Origin: Merismopedia glauca CCAP 1448/3 | Lineage (GTDB): Bacteria; Cyanobacteriota; Cyanobacteriia; Cyanobacteriales; CCAP-1448 | Reading direction: 5' to 3' | Assembly (NCBI RefSeq): GCF_003003775.1 | Contig: NZ_PVWJ01000007.1 | Location: 1-64,000, forward strand | Length of the DNA stretch: 64,000 bases | In this document: positions 5,265 through 61,700 of the stretch, piece by piece | How positions within the stretch are numbered: the stretch's first letter is position 1 | Layout: the number at the start of each line of letters is the position of its first letter | Program-made: the position numbers and the translations under genes | Notes under the pieces: generated by a model | What the model was told of the DNA's origin: nothing | Databases searched by the model: none | Seen by the model: only the letters and a program-made list of their open reading frames with translations

Positions 5265-5311
5265 GGTGGTTTAACGAAGTCAGAAGTCAGAAGGAGGGGC
5301 GCAAAGCTTTC

Positions 5312-5536
5312 ATTGGTGTCAACTTAAGGCTCAAATGATTGCTGCACGCTGGTTTTGAGCCACAACCGCCCGGAGGTTGAAAACCCCTGGCTTATAGCTA
5401 AAGTCCTCTAAAGAGGACTCTAAGAACTATTTTCAGTAGAGACGTAGCACTGCTACGTCTCTACCAGTGGACTTGGGCTACTCGCTTTGAACTTGAGTTC
5501 ACGGCGGGGTAAAGGTTTCACGTTAAGGTGAAGGGC
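5312..5536. repeat. MITE-like element, copy A (degenerate end, nested palindrome)
   Basis: Begins ATTGGTGTCAACTTAAGG and matches, in opposite orientation, the 205-bp element at 35466-35670 along its length: the shared blocks are GGTTGAAAACCCCTGG, AAGTCCTCTAAAGAGGACT, the GGACTT/GAACTTGAGTTC part and GGGGTAAAGGTTTCACG. The far end (CGTTAAGGTGAAGGGCAT) has lost the GTTGACACC terminus seen in copy B. No coding capacity. It fills most of the gap between the PBP gene and the Tudor-domain gene. Confidence 0.8.
5436..5464. repeat. 29-bp palindrome nested in MITE copy A
   Basis: GTAGAGACGTAGCA, one central C, then the exact reverse complement. It replaces the left arm of the AGTCCACTTCAGTGGACT hairpin that copy B keeps at this place, so it looks like a later insertion. 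Related halves occur at 2926 and 8387. Confidence 0.8.
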
Positions 5537-5572: not shown

Positions 5573-6880
5573 TTAGGAAATATCATCCAAATCAACCCAT
5601 TCGTCGTAGGATGAGTCATAACCTACATACTGCACGAAGTATTGTTGACCTTGGGTTTTGCCAATAATTGCCGAAAACCACTCTTCTTCATCTTCATCCC
5701 AGACTTTAACTTTATCACCGATCGCATATCCATTTGCGTCAGAGGAACTGCGATCGCGAATGCGGATATCGTCTTCTTCAACCCATTCATCATCCGATGA
5801 ACCGTAACCGACGTAATGTATAAAGAATCGTTTCTCAGCAATTTTCTCAATCGTGGCTTGATACCAATCCTCGTCGTCTTCGTCCCAAACTTCTATGCTT
5901 TGATTTACCGCATACTTATCGCTGGTATTTGAGTTTGCAGGAGATAAAACCCGATCTTGGCTGGGTTTTGGTGCTGCTAAAACTTCTGCTTTGACTAAAG
6001 CGTGAGCTTGTACAATTAATTTACGAGCTACAGTTTGGATTCCTGTATGTTCGTAATAATTGGTGGTTTGGTCTAAAAATGCAGCCACAAAATCTAAGTT
6101 ATCATCAGCAATTTGAATAAAATTACCTAAACTGCTAGAAATAGATTGGGGCGTTACACCTGTCTTGGAGACTAAATTACTCATCCAACCTTGTACCGAG
6201 TTAAAACCTTGAGTAATAAAACCAAGTTTATCGGTGGGGTTGCTACCTGGCAAAGAACTGCTTACGGTTGAAAAGAGAGGATTTTGAGTAATTGCAGTGG
6301 TATCTGCGCTAGTCATAATTCCCTGGATTTTGCCCAAAAAGTCAGGACCTAACGGCAAAATTCCATCTAAACAAACTAAAGCTACCATCCGCATTAAAGA
6401 TGCATCTTGGTAGTGAGTTCCCAGCGAATTGGCAAATTCTTGAGGATTGGGTTGGGGAATACCGTTAAGTTTCGAGAAAGCAATGATTTCGATCGCGATT
6501 TTGAGGACTAGATCGATAGTTTGGGTTACGTCTGCTTTGGGAGTGATGTTGCCTAAGAAAGAGAGAAAGCCGATTTTTTCCCCAACTTTGTTCGCTAAAG
6601 CTGCCGTTGCCATTGCCGTATCTGCTTTATCAATGATTTGATAGAGTTTAATGGCACTTTGATAGCCTTGTTGCGGGTCGTGATATAAAGTAGTAGCGCG
6701 ATCGCGAATTCTTTGAATTACATTAGCATCGGTTTCTCCTGTAATTGTGCGGATACTATTGTCAAACCCGACTAAATTACTCCACTGACTTGGTGCTACA
6801 AAATCAAGAGCTTTTAATACTTTGACGGTAATATTATCATTAGGTAACTCATCAACCAATTGAATAATTGATTTATCCAT
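5573..6880 (-). CDS. helical protein with two C-terminal Tudor/chromo-barrel domains
   Basis: Predicted 435 residues from ATG 6880 (MDKSIIQLVDELPNDN). An in-frame upstream ATG at 6919 is less likely because GGAG lies eight bases before 6880. Residues about 1-320 are mostly helical and low in known motifs. Two tandem beta-barrel domains follow (about 328-372 and 385-432), each built as [IK]-V-WDED-E-W-[YF]-A-I ... FxxHYVGYxSSxDEWV, the pattern of Tudor-knot/chromo-barrel or agenet-like folds that in eukaryotes bind methyl-lysine. The aromatic positions Trp/Tyr/Trp are kept in both copies. No signal peptide. Target and function are unknown; protein-protein binding is the safest inference. Confidence 0.75.
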   Translation of the reverse strand: MDKSIIQLVDELPNDNITVKVLKALDFVAPSQWSNLVGFDNSIRTITGETDANVIQRIRDRATTLYHDPQQGYQSAIKLYQIIDKADTAMATAALANKVGEKIGFLSFLGNITPKADVTQTIDLVLKIAIEIIAFSKLNGIPQPNPQEFANSLGTHYQDASLMRMVALVCLDGILPLGPDFLGKIQGIMTSADTTAITQNPLFSTVSSSLPGSNPTDKLGFITQGFNSVQGWMSNLVSKTGVTPQSISSSLGNFIQIADDNLDFVAAFLDQTTNYYEHTGIQTVARKLIVQAHALVKAEVLAAPKPSQDRVLSPANSNTSDKYAVNQSIEVWDEDDEDWYQATIEKIAEKRFFIHYVGYGSSDDEWVEEDDIRIRDRSSSDANGYAIGDKVKVWDEDEEEWFSAIIGKTQGQQYFVQYVGYDSSYDEWVDLDDIS

Positions 6881-7048
6881 AGCTAATTCTCCAAACCACA
6901 AATAGTTATTACAAAACAATAAGGTTCCGATATGTACGTGTAATTACGTAAGCTTTAAGAGAAACCTATTGCATATTGATAGAGTTCCCAAATCTAATAG
7001 AAAAGTAACTTGTTTGAGCAATGAAAGTTCACCTAAGCTGCTGTGAAT

Positions 7049-15387: not shown

Positions 15388-15415
15388 GTAGGGGCGCAAT
15401 GCATTGCGCCCCTAC
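15388..15415. repeat. 28-bp perfect palindrome
   Basis: GTAGGGGCGCAATG followed by its exact reverse complement. This family of interspersed palindromes is frequent in cyanobacterial intergenic DNA. A weaker inverted repeat (CAGGCTTCCAGCCTG) lies 80 bases before it. Confidence 0.85.
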
Positions 15416-18290: not shown

Positions 18291-18423
18291 AACTTTTTCC
18301 TAACTGGTTATGAGGGTTGTCGATCAAAATGATAACTCTAACATCTCTGCTAATCGCACCTATGATCCGCGCGACTTCTTCTACAACCTTTTTGGTTTTC
18401 GTGTTGTGTGTCTTGCTGGCATT

Positions 18424-18480
18424 GGCGGTTGAAACCGCGTCTACACAGACGAAACCCGCCTGCGCGGGTTGAATTAATTC
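18424..18480. repeat. triple-hairpin repeat, copy 1
   Basis: Three successive hairpins in 57 bases: GCGGTTGAAACCGC, GTCTACACAGAC, and AACCCGCCTGCGCGGGTT. Two further copies lie at 18545-18602 and 20391-20447, more than 90% alike. The 18291-18661 gap holds copies 1 and 2 and no gene. Confidence 0.9.
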
Positions 18481-18544
18481 GTTCGCACCAAATCGATCTA
18501 AACCTGCAATAACCTGCATTAATCCGCATCAATCGGTAGGCATC

Positions 18545-18602
18545 GGCGGTTGAAACCGCGTCTACACAGACGAAACCCGCCTGCGCGGGTTCAATTAATT
18601 CT
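18545..18602. repeat. triple-hairpin repeat, copy 2
   Basis: Same three stems as copy 1 with one change near the end (GGGTTCAATTAATTC). It ends about 60 bases before the kinase start codon and probably lies in its leader or promoter. Confidence 0.9.
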
Positions 18603-18661
18603 CCCGCATCAATAGCTCTGAACTTGGTATGATATCCTAAATCGGTAATCTCACCACTTAC

Positions 18662-20350: not shown

Positions 20351-20390
20351 GGAATATATCGGGGTAGATCTGATTCAGATATTCAGCATC

Positions 20391-20447
20391 GGCGGTTGAA
20401 ACCGCATCTATACAGACGAAACCCGCCTGCGCGGGTTGAATTAACTC
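20391..20447. repeat. triple-hairpin repeat, copy 3
   Basis: Same three stems (GCGGTTGAAACCGC, GTCTATACAGAC, ACCCGCCTGCGCGGGT). Its last bases overlap the stop codon of the minus-strand gene ending at 20441, and it sits between two convergent genes. Confidence 0.88.
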
Positions 20448-21673
20448 GCCTTACCTACCGCCTCCATCGCCGCTTCTAAAGCAATAGCTACATGAGTCCA
20501 ATGAGTTCCCCCTTGACAAAAAACCACATATGGCTCCCTTAATGGCCCATCAGCCGAAAATTCCGAAGTACTACCATCAATAAACGTCCCTCCAGCCATA
20601 ACTAACTCGCTTTCATATCCCGGCATTCCTGAAGGTACGGGATCTAGATAAGAACCAATGGGTGAGTTTTGCTGAATTGCCCGACAAAATGCGATAATTT
20701 TCTCCTTAGAACCCAGTTTAATTCCCTGAATCACATCTCGACGGGGTGCTTCTGGCAAGGGATTAACTGGATACCCGAGCTTGTCAAAGATATAAGCTGT
20801 TAAGTGGTTTCCTTTCAAGGCTTCTCCCACCATTTGCGGTGCTAGAAACAATCCTTGAAATAACAGCCGATTTTGGTCAAAAGTCGCCCCTCCACAGCTA
20901 CCAATTCCTGGCGCAGTCAGGCGGTAGGTAGCAACTTCTACTAAGTCTGCTTTTCCTGCTACATAGCCACCAGCAGTGACTATAGTTCCCCCAGGGTTTT
21001 TAATCAAAGAACCCGCCATCAAATCAGCACCTACCGCCGTAGGTTCGACATTATCGACAAATTCCCCATAGCAGTTATCCACAAAGCAAATAACATCTGG
21101 TTTCTGCTGTTTGACGAGATGGACTATTTTTTCGATCTCAGCGATTGAGAGACTAGATCGCCAAGCATAGCCACAAGAACGCTGAATATGAACTAATCTG
21201 GTCTTTTCCGTGACGGATTGTGCCAGTTTCTCCCAATCGATCGCACCTTCAGGGGTGAGGGATAATTCTCTGTAAGTAATTCCTAACTCAGATAGAGATC
21301 CCTGACCTTTTCCTCTAATGCCGATAACTTCTTCTAAAGTATCGTAGGGATGACCAGCTACAGCCAGCATTTCATCTCCAGGGCGCAAAATCCCGTATAA
21401 AGCACAGGCTATAGCATGAGTCCCAGAAACGAACTGTACCCTCACTGCGGCAGCTTCTGCGCCCACCACGTCTGCAAATACCCGATCTAGGGTTTCTCGC
21501 CCTAAATCGTCATGACCGTAGCCACTGACGCTACTAAAATGATGTACCCCTACCCGATGGCGACGAAAGGCTGCTAAAACTTTTTTAAGATTTTGCTTGA
21601 CCTGAAGGTCAATAGCAGAAAATATTGGAGATAGAGCATTTTCTGCTGCTTGCATCTGCGTGCAAGTATTCAT
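20441..21673 (-). CDS. PLP-dependent Met_gamma_lyase/aluminium-resistance family protein
   Basis: Predicted 410 residues. The fold is that of the large cysteine/methionine-metabolism PLP enzymes, and the specific signatures are those of the family often called methionine gamma-lyase family or aluminium resistance protein (PF06838): HHFSSVSGYGHDDLGRE, VSGTHAIACALYGILRPGDE, ICFVDNCYGEFVD and GSLIKNPGGT, where Lys225 should hold the cofactor. Substrate is not established for the family. The stop codon lies inside repeat copy 3. It is transcribed towards the kinase gene and has a 400-base upstream gap shared with the desaturase gene. Confidence 0.88.
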   Translation of the reverse strand: MNTCTQMQAAENALSPIFSAIDLQVKQNLKKVLAAFRRHRVGVHHFSSVSGYGHDDLGRETLDRVFADVVGAEAAAVRVQFVSGTHAIACALYGILRPGDEMLAVAGHPYDTLEEVIGIRGKGQGSLSELGITYRELSLTPEGAIDWEKLAQSVTEKTRLVHIQRSCGYAWRSSLSIAEIEKIVHLVKQQKPDVICFVDNCYGEFVDNVEPTAVGADLMAGSLIKNPGGTIVTAGGYVAGKADLVEVATYRLTAPGIGSCGGATFDQNRLLFQGLFLAPQMVGEALKGNHLTAYIFDKLGYPVNPLPEAPRRDVIQGIKLGSKEKIIAFCRAIQQNSPIGSYLDPVPSGMPGYESELVMAGGTFIDGSTSEFSADGPLREPYVVFCQGGTHWTHVAIALEAAMEAVGKAS

Positions 21674-25132: not shown

Positions 25133-26629
25133 ATGCTTTTTCGTTCATTTACTGTACGATCTACCACCTTAATAGCTCTAGCTGCTGGTATAGCTATAGT
25201 TTACCTGCCCCAAGAATTAGCTTCTTCACAAACAGCCTCTCCCACACCATCAGCTACACCAGATATTAATCCCAATCCTAATCTTTTGCAGGTTCCTACC
25301 GATCCAGCCGCAGTTAAAGTACAACGAACCCAACCAATTACCTTACAAGAAGCATTAGATCTAGCCGAACGCAACAATCGACAACTACAAACTGCTAAAA
25401 TCACCCTACAAGGTTCAGAAGCTGCCTTAGATGTGGCTAAAGCGGCGCGATCGCCAACTCTCAGCTTGCAATCTAATTTAAATTACAACGATTCGGCTAA
25501 TTCTCAACTCAGTCAAAGTCAAGGCAGTTTCAATCTAGGAGGACAAAACCTTAACATCGATCGAGATACCACTAGCGCCACCTTTGATACTACCTTGCAG
25601 CTAGATTACAACCTGTACAATGCTGGTAGGCGTAATGCTAATATCAATGCGGCGCAAGAACAAGTACGAGTCGATCGCCTACAAGTTCAAGTAACTCAGG
25701 AACAATTGCGTTTAGATGTAGCTAATGCCTATTATGCTTTGCAACAAGCAGACGCGCAATTAGAAACCTTGCAAGACTCGTTAAGAGAAGCAGATCGGAG
25801 CGTCAGAGATGCTAAGTTGCTGGAAAGTAACGGTTTAGGCACTAAATTTGACATTTTACAAGCTCAAGTCCAAGAAGCACAAGCTTATCAAAATTTAGCT
25901 AATGCTGTTAGCCAGCAAAAAACTGCTCGACGCAACTTAGTTCAACTTTTGAGCTTAGCTGATGATGTTGAAGTCATAACCGCAGAACCAATTCAAGAAG
26001 CCGAAGACTGGGAAATTCCCTTAGAAGACACAATCGTCTTAGCCTTGAAAAATCGGGTAGAACTTCAGCAACAACTCGCTAGACGACAAATTGCTATAGC
26101 TAACCAAACAGTCGCTTTAGCCGATACTAAGCCCCAAGTGAATCTATTTGCTAACTACAATTTACTTGATAGTTTAAAGGACAATCAAGGAATAGCCAAT
26201 GGTTATAGCTTAGGTGCGAGCTTGACATGGCGGTTATATGATGGAGGTGCAGCCAGAGCCGGAGCCAGACAGCAAAGAGCAAATCAGGCTCTAGCCGAAA
26301 CTGGTTTTGCTGACACCCGCAATCAGATTCGTTTACAGGTTGAACAAGCTTATTTCCAAATCAACGCCAACCGACAAAACATTCAAGCTGCGACTCTAGC
26401 ATTAACCCAAGCTCAAGAAAGTTTGAGATTAGCTAGATTGCGCTTTACTGAAGGTGAAGGAACTCAATTAGAAGTCCTCACAGCGCAAACTGCTTTAACT
26501 ACGGCTCGTGTTAATCGTTTACAGGCTATTTTAGACTATAACCGTGCTTTGGCTTCTTTACAACGAGCTATAGGCATAGCAGGAGTCAGGAGTCAGGAGT
26601 CAGGAGCCAGGAGTAAACTAAGTCTGTAA
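25133..26629 (+). CDS. TolC-family outer-membrane efflux protein
   Basis: Predicted 498 residues. Residues 1-34 are a signal peptide. A Pro/Thr/Ser linker precedes two outer-membrane-efflux repeats: ITLQEALDLAERNNRQLQ (start of repeat 1) and EDTIVLALKNRVELQQQLAR (start of repeat 2), with long alternating Gln/Ala-rich coiled helices (ANAYYALQQADAQLETLQ). It should form the trimeric channel of a type I secretion or multidrug efflux system. No inner-membrane partner lies beside it, as is usual for cyanobacterial TolC/HgdD. The final GVRSQESGARSKLSL is encoded by AGGAGTC heptamers, so the native end was probably near RAIGIA. Confidence 0.9.
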   Translation: MLFRSFTVRSTTLIALAAGIAIVYLPQELASSQTASPTPSATPDINPNPNLLQVPTDPAAVKVQRTQPITLQEALDLAERNNRQLQTAKITLQGSEAALDVAKAARSPTLSLQSNLNYNDSANSQLSQSQGSFNLGGQNLNIDRDTTSATFDTTLQLDYNLYNAGRRNANINAAQEQVRVDRLQVQVTQEQLRLDVANAYYALQQADAQLETLQDSLREADRSVRDAKLLESNGLGTKFDILQAQVQEAQAYQNLANAVSQQKTARRNLVQLLSLADDVEVITAEPIQEAEDWEIPLEDTIVLALKNRVELQQQLARRQIAIANQTVALADTKPQVNLFANYNLLDSLKDNQGIANGYSLGASLTWRLYDGGAARAGARQQRANQALAETGFADTRNQIRLQVEQAYFQINANRQNIQAATLALTQAQESLRLARLRFTEGEGTQLEVLTAQTALTTARVNRLQAILDYNRALASLQRAIGIAGVRSQESGARSKLSL

Positions 26630-26699
26630 ACTAAGTTTAGTCGGTTAATGCCCCTCTGCCCCTCTTCCCCTCTGCTCCTCTGCCCCAATGCCCAATGCC
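26581..26699. repeat. heptamer array plus interspersed repeat at tolC-like 3' end
   Basis: AGGAGTC heptamers (26581-26612) run through the stop codon. AGTAAACTAAGTCTGTAAAC with its continuation to 26653 follows, and is repeated at 42369-42410 before dnaG. CCCCTCTG and CCCAATG units run on to the stop of the next gene. Confidence 0.85.
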
Positions 26700-35427: not shown

Positions 35428-35465
35428 TTAATTCTCTAAAACTCTTGTGGGGTAGGCATCCTGCC

Positions 35466-35670
35466 ATAGGTGTCAACTTAACGTGAAACCTTTACCCCGC
35501 CGCGAACTCAAGTTCGCGGCTAATAGCTCAAGTCCACTGAAGTGGACTGAAAATATTTCTTAGAGTCCTCTTTAGAGGACTTTAGCTGTTAGCCAGGGGT
35601 TTTCAACCCCTGGCGGTCGTTGCCTAAACCCAGCGTGCAGCAACCGTTTGAGCCTTAAATTGACACCAAT
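35466..35670. repeat. MITE-like element, copy B, with 11-bp target duplication
   Basis: 205 bases beginning ATAGGTGTCAACTTAA and ending TTAAATTGACACCAAT, which is an imperfect terminal inverted repeat (14 of 16). It is flanked on both sides by GGCATCCTGCC (35455-35465 and 35671-35681), an apparent target-site duplication. Inside are three stem-loops: GAACTCAAGTTC, AGTCCACTGAAGTGGACT and AGTCCTCTTTAGAGGACT, plus CCAGGGGTTTTCAACCCCTGG. No ORF. It is inserted between rsmD and the Deg protease gene. Confidence 0.88.
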
Positions 35671-35725
35671 GGCATCCTGCCTGCCCCAGTTTTGAGAATA
35701 AACTAGATCCAGTTTTGAAGATAAA

Positions 35726-42210: not shown

Positions 42211-42368
42211 GTAAAGTTACGTAAACACCCACATTCCAGGATAAACGAATTTGTTAACTAGTCGCCACTAACCCACCAGTAGTTAAAATGAAGATATCGT
42301 TATCCTAAGTGAGTTGGCGATCGCTCATCTGTGCCAATGGCAGATAGAATGACTATGCCAAAGTCAAA

Positions 42369-42436
42369 AGTAAACTAAGTCTGTAAACTTAGTTTAATTG
42401 GTCAATGCCCATTGCCCCTTGCCCAATTCCCCAATT
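42369..42436. repeat. interspersed repeat with CCCAATT/CCCATTG units upstream of dnaG
   Basis: AGTAAACTAAGTCTGTAAAC and following bases match 26612-26653 almost base for base. CCCATTG-type units follow and end just before the dnaG ATG, producing a false in-frame extension. Confidence 0.85.
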
Positions 42437-55766: not shown

Positions 55767-58700
55767 ATGAGCAATTCATCTAATGCGCCTCAAGACCGAG
55801 AACCTCGCGCTAGGAACCTGTTCCAGCGTTTGAGGATGATTCTGTTGAGCCGAACTAGCATTACGATTGGTACGATTTTACTGCTAGGGGCGATCGCAGG
55901 GGGGATAGGTTTATGGATCTTCATCCAGCGCCAACTTGCTCCCTTAGTCGAAGAAAGTCTGCGGAAAAGTATCAATCGTCCGGTAGAGGTTGGGAAGTTA
56001 GAAAGCTTTTCTTGGACGGGTGCAGCGCGGTTTGGTAGGTCAGAAATTCCTCCGACTCCTACGGATACAGATCGTTTGACTGTAGAAGCTATAGAAGTTT
56101 CGGTGAATCCTTGGAGGTTGCTGTTTAATAACACCTTGCAACTCGATCTTACCCTGATTCAACCAGATGTCTATCTAGAACAAGATCCTAACCGAGTTTG
56201 GGCTGCAACGAAGATTAAGACAGGTAGCGGTGGGGGAGGACTAAAAACGGAAATTGAGTCCCTCAGAGTCGTTCGAGGACAGTTGATTTTAGTTCCTCTA
56301 CCAGATCCTGGTCAACCCAAAGGGGCGATCGCGCTTCAGCAAGTTAATGGAATTAGTCATTTTCTAGAGGAAAACAAGCGTATTAAGTTTGATTTGCAAG
56401 CTTTACCTGTAACAGGGGGAAATATACGACTTGTAGGAGATACTCGCCCAACTAAAGAACAATATAATCTGTTAGTTGCAGGAAAAACTCTTCTCGCTGA
56501 CGACATGAGTCGTCTGCTGAGATTGAAGGGATTGAAGTTTCCCGCAGGTCGATTTGATGGCAATTTAGAAGTTAAAATTGATGGCGATTTACCTGTATTA
56601 GCTTGGGGAAACGTTCGTGTAGATAAAGCTACTTTTAAAATAGCTAAAGTTCCCCAATTATTCTCTAATTCAACTGGAGATATTAGGTTTAGATCGACTG
56701 AAATTGAGATTCAAAATGTCAGTACGATCTATGGTGAAATTCCTGGGAGAGTGACGGGAACTTTAGATCCGAAAGCAGGTTTTAATATTACTGGGTTTAC
56801 TTATCCCGTACCTCTAAAACCAGGCCTGAGAACTCTGAAATTAAAGTTACCTGTATCGGCTGATGCTGAGTTCAGATCTAATCTTAGATTAGTAGGTGCT
56901 TGGGAAAAACCAACTCTTTCGGGAAGCGTATTTACAACCGATTTAGCCAGGATTGATAAACTCAATTTTAACTCCATTAGAGCCAACTTTCAACTAGTAG
57001 CTTCTCAACTATCGATTACTGGAATTGAAGCAAATCCAGCCGTCGGTGGTAAGATTAGTGGGGCGGGACAAATCAACTTAGAAAAAACTGGTAAAACCTT
57101 TTTTAATTTACAAGGTGAAAATATTCCTGGAGACATTATTGCTAAAACTTACCGAACCAATTTACCCATTACTTTGGGTAAGATTTCTGGAAGAACGCAA
57201 GTTTTTGGAACTCCAGGTAATTTACAAACCTTAGTTCAATTTGATGCACCTCAAGCTACCTATCCAGCTAAAGGAAACTTGTTGATTACACCAGGAGGAA
57301 ATATATTTTTCCCTTATGCTACTTTTCAAGTTGGACAAGGTAAAATAGAAACTAAAGGTAGATTAATAGAGAAGAATTGGCAAGCCGCAGTTCAGGCTAT
57401 AAATGTTAATGGGAATCAATTAGCTAATCTATTTAATGGTAAAGTACCTTCTGTATTTCAAGGGTTAATAGCAGGTAACTTTTTAGTAACTGGAAACCTG
57501 TCTCAAGCGCAGAAATTTACAGCTTTGGGAAGTGGTAATATTCAGTATGACCAAGGCAGTATTGCGGGGACAAATGTGCGGGTGAATAGCGACAGATGGC
57601 AAGGTAATTTTGTCGCTAGCAATCTCCCCATTCCCCGTTTATCTCCAGAAACTCCAGTCAATCTTAAACCTGGAAATATTACAGGTAGGTTTAATCTATC
57701 TGGCGATTTACAAGGCTTTAAACCGGAAAGTTTGCAAGGCAATGGTGTGGGTACAGTAGTCTTTCCTGACGGAGTTGTGACTACTAACAATTTACAACTA
57801 AATAATGGACGTTGGCAAGGTAATTTAATAGCCAATAGTTTAGCTATTACTCGCATTTCTCCCTTAGTTCCTCCTAACCTTAAACCTGGTAAAATCACAG
57901 GAGTTTTTAACGCTTCTGGAATCTTAGCCAAAATCCGTCCAGATAATATTCAAGGTCAAGGAAGTGGTAGTTTAGCTTTACCAGATGGTATCGTTAAAGC
58001 CGTTTTTGTTGAACTAAATAATGGGGATTGGCGAGGTAATTTTAGCACCGATAGTTTAGCCGTCACCAGAATAGTTCCAGAAATTCCTGTCAATTTGAGA
58101 TCTGGGAAAATTGCTGGCAATTTTGCTTTGCGGGGTAATGTCGCTAGAATTCGTCCAGATACAATAATCGGTGGCGGTTCGGGAATATTTACTCTACCAG
58201 ATGGAGTAATTAAAGCGACAAATTTACAATTAAATAATGGAGATTGGCGAGGTAATTTTACTACAAGTAATTTGGCAGTTAGTCGAGTAGTTCCTGATAT
58301 TCCTGTAAACTTGAAATCGGGGAAAGTTACTGGTGGTTTTGACTTAAGAGGGAACTTAGCTAAAGTTCGTCCAGATACAGTAATCGGTACTGGTTCAGGA
58401 ATATTTACTCTGCCGGATGGAGTAATTAAAGCGACAAATTTACAATTAAATAATGGGGATTGGCGCGGTAATTTTACAACCAATAATTTGACAGCTAGTA
58501 GAGTAGTCCCAGATATTCCTGTCACTTTGAGATCTGGCAAAATCGCTGGTAGTTTTGATTTAGCTGGAAACCTAGCCAAAGTTCGTCCAGACACAGTTAG
58601 AGGTGTCGGTTCTGGAACGTTTACACTTCCCAATGGTGAGATTAAAGCTGCAAATGTTAGGTTGAATTATGGAAATTTCCTAGCCAATTTAACCACAAAT

Positions 58701-61700
58701 AATCTAGCAATAGGACAACTATCACCGGAGATTCCAACTAATCTCAAACCAGGAAAACTGACGAGTAATTTCAGAGTTGCAGGAAACTTAGCTAATCTCA
58801 AACCAGAAAGTATTAACGCCAGTGGCGCGGGAACGTTACAATTACCATCAGGGGCGATCGCAGCTAATTCATTCAAGTTAACTAATGGTAATTTTCTGGC
58901 AAATCTCACCACAAACGATCTAGCAATAGGACAACTATCGCCAGATATTCCACCTAATCTCAAACCAGGAAAACTAACAAGTAATTTCACAGTTGCAGGA
59001 AACTTAGCTAACCTGAAACCAGAAAGTATTAACGCCAGTGGTTCGGGAACGTTACAATTACCATCAGCGGCGATCGCAGCTAATTCATTCAAGTTAACTA
59101 ATGGAAATTTCCTAGCCAATTTAACCACAAACGATCTGGCAATAGGACAACTATCGCCAGATATTCCACCTAATCTGAAACCAGGAAAACTAACAGGTAA
59201 TTTCACAGTTGCAGGAAACTTAGCTAACCTGAAACCAGAGAGTATTAACGGAAGCGGTTCGGGAAGTTTAATCTTACCTAATGGTAGAGTTACTGGTTCA
59301 AATTTACAACTAGCTCAAGGACGTTGGCAAGGAAATTTTGAGACTGATAATCTACTACTAGGACAAGTTGCGCCTCAAGTTCCAGATAATATTAAAGATG
59401 GCAAACTCACAGCTAATTTCTTCTTATCAGGAGATCTAGCTAGGCTAAGTCCAGACCAAATTAATGGCAATGGTAGTGGTAAACTAATTCTGCCTCAAGG
59501 TACAGTCAACGCCTCAAATGTAGAAATAAATCAAGGCAAATGGCAGGGGAATTTTCAAACTGATAATTTGGGTATAGCTTCATTAGTACCTCAAGTCGCC
59601 GATAATTTACCTGATGGCAAACTCACCGCTAACTTTAACCTATCTGGCAACTTAGCGACTCCTACCCTAGCCAGTTTGGAAGGGAATGGCGCTGGTAAAC
59701 TAACCTGGAAAGATGGTAACCTGACAGCCGAGAATGTGCTATTAAATAACGGTCGCTGGCAAGGTAACTTTAATACCACTAATCTAGATGTAGGGGCGAT
59801 CGCTCAATTTGCACCTACCCCCAACGGACAGCCACTAGAAGTTACAGGAAAGCTGAATGCGAATTTAAACGCTAGTGGCAGTTTAGCCAGTTTTAATCCT
59901 GGGAATCTCCAAGCCACAGGCACCATTAAACTAGTAGATTTCGTCGCCTATGGACGGAAATTTGAGCCACTGTTGGCTGGTAATCTCAATGTTACCCCAG
60001 AACAGGGTGTAAATCTGGATCTGACAGGAACCCAAGATCGAATTGCACTAGTTCTTTCACCCAGTTATCAACCAGTTTCATTTTACTTGCGTCAAGGCGA
60101 TCTGGTCGCTTCTGGAAAAACCGCAGGGGATAACTTCTTAATTGATACCCAAAACCTCCCCCTAGCACTGGTAAAAGATATCGCTCCCATTCCTGCTAAT
60201 TTCGCCTCACAACCCATCTCCGGATCGCTTTCTGGCAACTTTATTATTAACCTGAAAAACCAATCCATTCAAGCCAATAATGCAGTCGTAGACAAACCCG
60301 TATTTGGCAGATTTAGGGGAGATAAATTAACTGCCAATTTTACCTATGCTAACGGGAAAGCCACCATTTCTAATACCGAATTGCAGCAGGGAAATAACCG
60401 CTACATCCTCAATGCCAATATTACCCCAACCGCAAGAGGTCCGCAATTCCAGGCTAAATTGCAAATCCCTCAAGGAGACGTTCAAGATGTTTTAACCAGT
60501 TTCCAAATTTTTGAACTGCAAGATTTTGGCAGACAATTTGAGGGTAGAGAATTTGGGAATGCTAGTGATGTTCCAGCAGTCTTTTCGGGTATCTCATCCC
60601 AAAGCTTACTCACCCAAATCAACCGCTTAACAGAAATCAAAATTCTCCAAGCGAGACAAGAAACGCAAAGGCGCGAAGCTTTGATTCCCGATTTGAGAGA
60701 TTTAAAAGGTAAGTTTAGCGGCGAAATTAATGCTGCTGGTTCCCTATCTACAGGAATCAATGCTGACTTTAATTTAGAGGGAAAAGATTGGTTATGGCAA
60801 CGCTACCAAGCCGAACAAATCATCGCTAAAGGAACTTTTGAAAACGGAATTCTGACCTTACTGCCTTTGCGAATTCAATCCCAAGAAAGCCTATTTTCTT
60901 TAACTGGAACATTGGGTGGAGAACAGCAAGCAGGACAAGTTAAAATTGAGAATGTTCCTGCCGAATTAGTCCAAAGTATCTTCAAACTTCCAATTGATAT
61001 TAGTGGTAACTTAAACGCCACTGCCACCTTATCAGGTAGTACCGAAAATCCGTCTAGTCGGGGTGAAATTAGTCTAGTTCAAGGTAAGATTAATCAAACC
61101 CCAATTCAAAGCGTACAATCTAGTTTTGATTATTCTGATTCTACCTTAAATTTTTCGACTAATGGGATTATTTCTGGTAGCGATCCCATCCAGATTATTG
61201 GTTCAGTGCCCTACAAATTACCATTTTCCACCCAAGCGCCGACAAGCGATCGCCTTGCTATTAATGTTAGCGCTCAAAACCAAGCTTTAGGATTAATCAG
61301 TTTACTTAGTCGCAATCAAATAACTTGGGTAGATGGCAAAGGTCAAATCGATCTCAAAATAGAAGGTCAAATAGAACCAAACACTGGCAAAATATTAGAA
61401 CTGGTCGCGGCTGGAGTAGCAACAGTTGATAATGCAACTATCGAATCCTCCTCTCTTCAAGGAGAACCCCTAACCCAAGTCAAAGGAAAAGTTTTCTTTG
61501 ACTTCGATCATATTGATGTTGAAAGTTTACAAGGCAAATTTAGCCAAGGTCAAGTTAATGCGGTGGGAACTCTGGCTATTTCTAAACCTTCCTTAACTGA
61601 GAATCCTTTAACAATTAATTTAGACCAAATAGCTATTAATATTAAAGATCGCTACACAGGTGGAGTCCAAGGGAAGTTAATAGTTAATCGAACCTTATTT

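Follow-up and report, generated by a model that had tools for sequence, protein, structure and literature searches.

A short element of Merismopedia glauca, very probably a MITE with the ends of a cyanobacterial IS4-family insertion sequence, set in a REP-like palindrome and carrying a hairpin array

Between an htrA-like gene and the rsmD-like gene that follows it, both on the minus strand, the genome of Merismopedia glauca CCAP 1448/3 carries a short, strongly folded sequence with inverted ends. What kind of element is it, what moves it, into what does it insert, and where does its hairpin-filled body come from? We considered these questions for the copy in a 64,000-nucleotide stretch of contig NZ_PVWJ01000007.1 (the window), together with the rest of the host assembly (5.2 Mb in 254 contigs) and other cyanobacterial genomes. 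We conclude with high confidence that the element is a non-autonomous MITE that has the ends of a cyanobacterial IS4-family insertion sequence (IS), sits in REP-like palindromes and carries a separate cargo. Its parts in the window are as follows.

35449–35464, unstranded: left half of the REP-like palindrome that the element interrupts, GGGGTAGGCATCCTGC ... TGCCTGCCCC; exact uninterrupted copies of GGGGTAGGCATCCTGCCTGCCCC lie elsewhere in the host, e.g. at C2:62471-62493
35456–35464, unstranded: target duplication, left copy, GCATCCTGC, 9 bp
35465–35481, plus strand: left terminal inverted repeat CATAGGTGTCAACTTAA, 1 mismatch from CATTGGTGTCAACTTAA
35465–35671, plus strand: whole MITE, 207 bp, without an ORF of at least 80 aa
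35497–35616, unstranded: strand-symmetric hairpin-array core; covariance model R1 gives 123.7 bits on plus and 114.6 bits on minus
35499–35520, unstranded: hairpin S1
35520–35527, unstranded: helix P2, 5' side, CTAATAGC
35531–35548, unstranded: hairpin S2, AGTCCACTGAAGTGGACT
35564–35581, unstranded: hairpin S3, AGTCCTCTTTAGAGGACT
35585–35592, unstranded: helix P2, 3' side, GCTGTTAG
35593–35613, unstranded: hairpin S4, CCAGGGGTTTTCAACCCCTGG
35655–35671, minus strand: right terminal inverted repeat CATTGGTGTCAATTTAA (read on minus)
35672–35680, unstranded: target duplication, right copy, GCATCCTGC, 9 bp
35672–35687, unstranded: right half of the interrupted REP-like palindrome

These boundaries come from comparison of the copies with one another and with autonomous relatives. 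A preliminary description, made from the window alone, had reported imperfect inverted ends and a body without an ORF, both of which we find as described, the ends lying just inside the two GGCATCCTGCC flanks. It had also given a length of 205 bp and an 11-bp target duplication. The length was wrong, as sister copies and the cognate IS show that an outer C and an outer G belong to the element, which in full reads CATTGGTG...CACCAATG. The 11-bp match itself is real, with GGCATCCTGCC at 35455–35465 and again at 35671–35681; the true duplication, in contrast, is the 9-bp GCATCCTGC, and because the target is palindromic, the match consists of these 9 bp plus one coincidental base per side. Empty repeats of the first type lack both the C that precedes ATTGG and the G that follows CCAAT, which are nevertheless present in the copies and are therefore the element's own. 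An IS231-like element whose duplication is truly 11 bp long, the outer C and G being part of the target, could account for the identity of GGCATCCTGCC over 11 bp on either side and for the fit of the ends to the published IS231 pattern, CAT-------AA--TAA. But in the eight copies of the AANGCNTT type, the C and G are present, are absent from the empty REP, and leave 8 bp of duplication; autonomous elements carry the C...G with 9-bp duplications; and IS231 duplications measure 10–12 bp (PMC2266710). Comparison between copies rules out a genuine 11-bp duplication, and the IS231-like reading as a whole seems to us extremely improbable.

Further copies with intact ends, whose lack the preliminary description had regarded as telling against mobility, are plentiful in the host, with 62 BLAST matches and 18 two-ended copies (both ends within 5 mismatches of the terminal inverted repeat). 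Perfect duplications, which differ in sequence between copies, flank 12 of the 18, eight of them 8 bp and four of them 9 bp long. All 12 of these clean copies sit in REP-like palindromes, with the duplication centred on the dyad axis in 12 of 12. The copies with 8-bp duplications (L004, L005, L006, L008, L009, L011, L012, and L017) lie in GTAGGGGCGC-AANGCNTT-GCGCCCCTAC, and those with 9-bp duplications (L001, L002, L007, and L013, the window copy being one of these four) lie in palindromes like GGGGTAGGCATCCTGCCTGCCCC. Even-length palindromes thus pair with 8 bp and odd-length palindromes with 9 bp in the host, a pairing that is not a rule, as an even palindrome with a 9-bp duplication is found in another genome (L273). 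Uninterrupted forms of both targets are present as well. The sequence GGGCGCAANGCNTTGCGCCC occurs at 94 host loci at up to 2 mismatches (the reversed pattern at 0), and the degenerate second type of REP has 17 exact uninterrupted host matches, 13 of which are identical to the window target GGGGTAGGCATCCTGCCTGCCCC. Each of these 13, which as empty sites are paralogous REPs within the host genome, has one GCATCCTGC, the predicted unoccupied state; in the protein neighboring the element, the closest named relatives, mostly Nostocales, show at most 72% identity.

REPs this abundant and nearly identical might also suggest that the copies are immobile repeats, multiplied through recombination of the REPs that flank them, and the flanks of some copies are indeed mismatched (L003) or otherwise unmatched or cut off (L018 and L027). 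Such recombination would not, however, create duplications that vary by copy and, on either side, agree with the REP variant at that site. Moreover, the copies L007 and L008 are 98.6% identical, yet their REP types differ and so do their duplications, as is expected under transposition. Identical REPs on either side could reflect recombination in a few copies, but as an account of the family, we find it scarcely credible and retain transposition of a MITE. Some REPs may have a further history. The window holds an empty REP, GGGCGCAATGCATTGCGCCC, at 15392–15411, with similar loci at L240–L254, and 4 of 15 empty REPs examined have ATACCAATTCAC-like inverted ends on both sides within 75 bp; by their sequence, some REPs look like the centers of another, longer element.

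The window contains a second copy, which had been described in opposite orientation and taken as a sign of mobility.

5311–5531, minus strand: second copy at 80% identity, with an intact left (window) end and a degenerated right one
5303–5310, unstranded: REP target half AAAGCTTT left of the second copy, right half lost
5436–5464, unstranded: foreign palindrome GTAGAGACGTAGCACTGCTACGTCTCTAC in place of half of hairpin S2; same exchange in L011 and L012

The copy and its orientation are real, but with its right end and right target half lost it shows no duplication; its core (5366–5507) still scores 67.8 bits with model R1. Other features of the window include a minus-strand 448-aa protein (5573–6919) with Pfam matches to Tudor-knot, MBT, and chromo-like domains in its C-terminal part, unusual for a bacterium; a 49-nt dispersed repeat (26605–26653 and 42362–42410, 86% identical), unrelated to the MITE; and a tandem array with a 216-nt period and units 60–90% identical (57645–59656), which is probably a repeat protein.

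As the mobilizer of the MITE, an IS4-type transposase had been proposed on the grounds that 10–12-bp duplications are known for that group. The proposal is supported by an autonomous partner with the same ends in other cyanobacterial genomes; the route to it was wrong in detail, as the duplications measure 8–9 bp in the host, and that of the autonomous element 9 bp. The partner, in G193 (C49:278-1729), is 1452 bp long, has two convergent ends that are exactly CATTGGTGTCAACTTAA, and encodes its transposase in a single 444-aa ORF. Its duplication, AATGCTTGC, lies within the palindrome GTAGGGGCGCAATGCTTGCGCCCC, the same kind of target as that of the MITE. The protein matches the NCBIfam IS4 model NF033592 (1e-54, 186 bits against a cut-off of 115) as well as Pfam DDE_Tnp_1, and it contains the Y-2-R-3-E-6-K signature as YRRRWKIEEAFSLTK, in which Y, R, E, and K are invariant across 11 aligned proteins. 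Nearly all relatives of this transposase at 52% identity or more are accompanied by a CATTGGTGTCAACTTAA end or one with one or two changes. Among 14 inspected two-ended ISs of the G193 clade, 11 are flanked by duplications, ten of 9 bp (three with one mismatch) and one of 10 bp, while nine of the 14 carry GTAGGGG in their left flank; palindromes of the form GTAGGGGC...GCCCCTAC are the main targets of the autonomous IS. A sister clade of ten relatives (36–41% identity) differs in its ends, which mostly read TGACAA in place of TGTCAA; an exact 9-bp duplication is present in five of the ten and a palindromic target in none. A named example of an autonomous element is that of the Nostoc sp. C057 plasmid p057_I (NZ_CP040290.1, WP_179076843.1), 1417 bp long, with ends CATTGGTGTCAAGTTAA and duplication GACTTACTT. 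In the host assembly, no transposase of the G193 family was found at E ≤ 0.01, although in 254 contigs a collapsed copy could be missed; the same query matches 154 of 391 genomes. The nearest relative, G001, has distant transposases only, and among the host's own IS4-like transposases (PF01609), no ORF is flanked by paired MITE-type ends within 5 mismatches.

The same ends are widespread. Of 391 genomes of the order, 125 contain the exact 17-mer CATTGGTGTCAAYTTAA, some of them more than 100 times, and the reversed control gave two matches in all. Duplications flank 41 of 65 end pairs from other genomes (37 of 9 bp, 4 of 10 bp), where the 65 include a few nested alternatives of one element and several of the 41 come from the same genomes and are not independent. 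A strong palindrome (at least 8 of 11 pairs) is present at the reconstructed site in 22 of these 41 insertions, as against 1.4% of 20,000 random positions, which, together with the 12 of 12 clean host copies, is the behavior of a REP-targeting IS. Because the other 19 lie outside strong palindromes, we regard the targeting as a preference that is strong but not absolute. Elsewhere, at least three further kinds of body lie between CATTGGTGTCAACTTAA-type ends, and a 326-bp internal-deletion derivative of the IS exists (L115/L116). Four genomes (G215, G319, G324, and G173) have dozens of exact IS4-type ends and no listed transposase match at E ≤ 1e-10; they hold either orphan MITE populations like that of the host or a more diverged mobilizer.

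How does this system compare with those already described? Small mobile dispersed repeats have reportedly been found in cyanobacteria by Elhai et al. in 2008. Those repeats, as cited in later work, and the GTAG-ended REPs known from cyanobacteria (PMC3733652) resemble the present ones in being palindromic, in belonging to the same phylum, and in the insertion of repeats into repeats. Cyanobacterial MITEs such as Nezha and the type II MITEs of Anabaena sp. 90 are likewise short, gene-less, and mostly intergenic, with inverted ends and strong folds (PMC3542288). Those of Anabaena sp. 90 were reported without a matching IS (PMC3542288), whereas for the present element, compared with them by description, one is found in other genomes. 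The closest parallel in targeting is ISRm22 of Sinorhizobium meliloti, an IS4-family element placed in the IS4Sa subgroup (PMC2266710), all copies of which were reported to interrupt REPs at the axis of the palindrome (PMC1525189). By its description, it is set apart from the present element by 6-bp duplications and alphaproteobacterial REPs, and the text considered mentions no MITE derivatives with a hairpin-array cargo (PMC1525189). The other ISs named there as inserting into REP palindromes, IS1397, ISKpn1, ISPsy8, IS621, and ISPpu9 (PMC1525189), are IS3- or IS110-family elements whose duplications are short or absent. Within the IS4 family, the autonomous partner resembles IS4Sa and IS231 in its single-ORF YREK DDE transposase, its length of 1.4–1.46 kb, and its CA(T) ends, and its duplication is about one helix turn long (9 bp, rarely 10), as in the family. 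The CATTGGTGTCAACTTAA ends satisfy both the IS231 pattern and that of IS4Sa, CA------T (PMC2266710). Published IS4Sa elements have 8–10-bp duplications and lengths of 1150–1750 bp (PMC2266710), values that the partner shares, such that it agrees with IS4Sa on ends, duplication, and length; the duplications of 8–9 bp in the host and 9–10 bp elsewhere fall outside the IS231 range. In the literature, we found neither the CATTGGTGTCAACTTAA end nor the core strings in any paper.

It is less simple to say what the body of the element is. It is not derived from the IS. Its layout is CC, S1, CTAATAGC, S2 (AGTCC..GGACT), a spacer, S3 (AGTCC..GGACT), GCTATTAG, S4, GG, so that the core consists of four hairpins and one long-range helix (P2), and the array is near its own reverse complement. 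The stem-loops that were noted earlier are borne out, the whole-element fold lying far beyond shuffled sequence (z = −12.4). Fourteen cores from many genera, chosen manually among BLAST matches and aligned by sequence alone, give 37 predicted pairs; 97.7% of cells pair, and 18 pairs show compensatory double changes, figures that describe those 14 cores; the observed covariation was reached by 0 of 500 shuffles. The double changes lie mostly in S1 and S4, and P2, nearly fixed in sequence, has none. Model R1 matches 39 of 194 cyanobacterial genomes at E ≤ 1e-5 and none of the other 155; most of the 39 have at least 18 scored hits, with the two strands of one locus counted twice, and the host has 91 matches, most of which pair up as the two strands of a locus. 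No paper searched describes the 118-position four-hairpin core, although it may overlap with what Elhai et al. reported in 2008. Variation within the array is itself palindromic. In L011, L012, and the second window copy, half of S2 is swapped for GTAGAGACGTAGCANTGCTACGTCTCTAC, and in L019 and L024, ATCACTGCGTGACGCTACGCGAAC lies within the S3 loop; in all five, palindromes are nested in palindromes, inserted into or replacing half of core hairpins. A separate 74-nt repeat has three copies in the window (18418–18491, 18539–18612, and 20385–20458), with hairpins GCGGTTGAAACCGC and CCCGCCTGCGCGGG. MITEs with the same ends in G080 and G012 (L111 and L112) have bodies built of its modules, and several such bodies match R1 weakly.

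The preliminary description had suggested that the body may be transcribed as a structured RNA. In a stronger form, the conserved object would be a functional RNA (a 3'-end stabilizer, an attenuator, or a small RNA) and the transposon ends only its vehicle. The fold, the compensatory changes between genomes, and the position between co-directional htrA-like and rsmD-like genes, owing to which the MITE would be transcribed if both genes are read together, all fit such a role. The structure is real, but its symmetry singles out no RNA function. The two strands match the model nearly equally, a symmetry for which a single-stranded function has no need. Some copies have exchanged half a hairpin for another palindrome, and covariation is weak within one genome. 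Rfam has no significant family for the element or the core. Furthermore, template switching during repair can perfect palindromes, and keep them perfect, without selection. Strand symmetry, half-hairpin replacement, and template switching together tell against an RNA function as the main reason for conservation, and we consider it unlikely, though less so than any of the other alternatives weighed here. Passive cargo is the role that we infer for the core within the MITE.

The core also travels in other company. Many cores occur in G005 and G060, although these genomes lack any exact IS4-type end. A second type of end was spotted by eye in the flanks of such cores and then followed with a pattern search and model R1, an automatic search for outer repeats having returned mostly noise. 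This end, ACTCAGATCTTGCACCA, defines a second MITE family in 78 of 391 genomes, with convergent pairs 85–250 bp apart, some with 3-bp duplications, TTA or TCA (L359–L388, e.g. L378:1501-1681). This shell may belong to the IS5/IS1031 group, which makes TNA duplications. Among 30 loci read, four (L375, L378, L381, and L388) have an R1 core between ACTCAGATCTTGCACCA ends, at E of about 1e-18 or better on the better strand, and in L361 a core lies beside a single such end. Between L378 and host copy L005, the cores are 85% identical although the ends are unrelated; G215 has cores in both types of shell.

A core that is made of palindromes and is found elsewhere without IS4-type ends, in an element whose targets end in GTAG like published cyanobacterial GTAG REPs (PMC3733652), might also be regarded as a composite, REPIN-like or derived from REPs, that a RAYT (a tyrosine HUH transposase) spreads by acting on hairpins, with the IS4-like ends incidental. 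Exact 8–10-bp duplications and ends identical to those of a DDE IS are unexpected under that scheme. To our knowledge, RAYT-type insertion produces no such target duplication. We thus judge a RAYT origin of the element very unlikely, but a RAYT may still explain the spread of empty REPs, or of the core outside its shells.

For the IS4-family MITE that we favor, movement most likely proceeded as follows. An IS4-type DDE (YREK) transposase bound the 17-bp ends and excised the element, which was then joined to target DNA with an 8–9-bp stagger. The usual target is a REP-like palindrome, with the stagger at, or within about a base of, its dyad axis. Insertion into extragenic repeats spares genes, allowing copies to accumulate, and the symmetric hairpin array, which also exists without these ends and in another type of MITE, rides along as a cargo module. 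Cut-and-paste chemistry and mobilization in trans are inferred, and because the transposase was not found in the host strain, activity there is likely to be past rather than present.

In itself, the element is ordinary, an IS4-type MITE in a REP, and ISRm22 has already made REP targeting by the IS4 family known. Its partner, corrected boundaries, and target are now added to this, and it is the hairpin core in two shells that lifts the element above routine. That the core is common to dozens of genomes and two end types suggests a little-known hitchhiking DNA module. We would go further only tentatively, and with slightly more doubt than belief, in proposing that the four-hairpin core is a distinct mobile module of cyanobacteria, passed between unrelated shells, whose structure is kept across much of the phylum because it aids the movement or survival of the DNA or acts when transcribed.

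More generally, a large set of orphan cyanobacterial MITEs is now tied to a cognate transposase and a precise target, which makes both trans-mobilization and REP targeting (with a palindrome such as GTAGGGGCGCAATGCTTGCGCCCCTAC) testable in vitro. That insertion is centered on REPs accounts for the rise of such elements to high copy number with genes left intact. The question that is raised is why the same symmetric hairpin array lies within unrelated transposon ends phylum-wide; answering it would help to show by what means bacterial palindromes spread and whether MITEs of bacteria can trade cargo.
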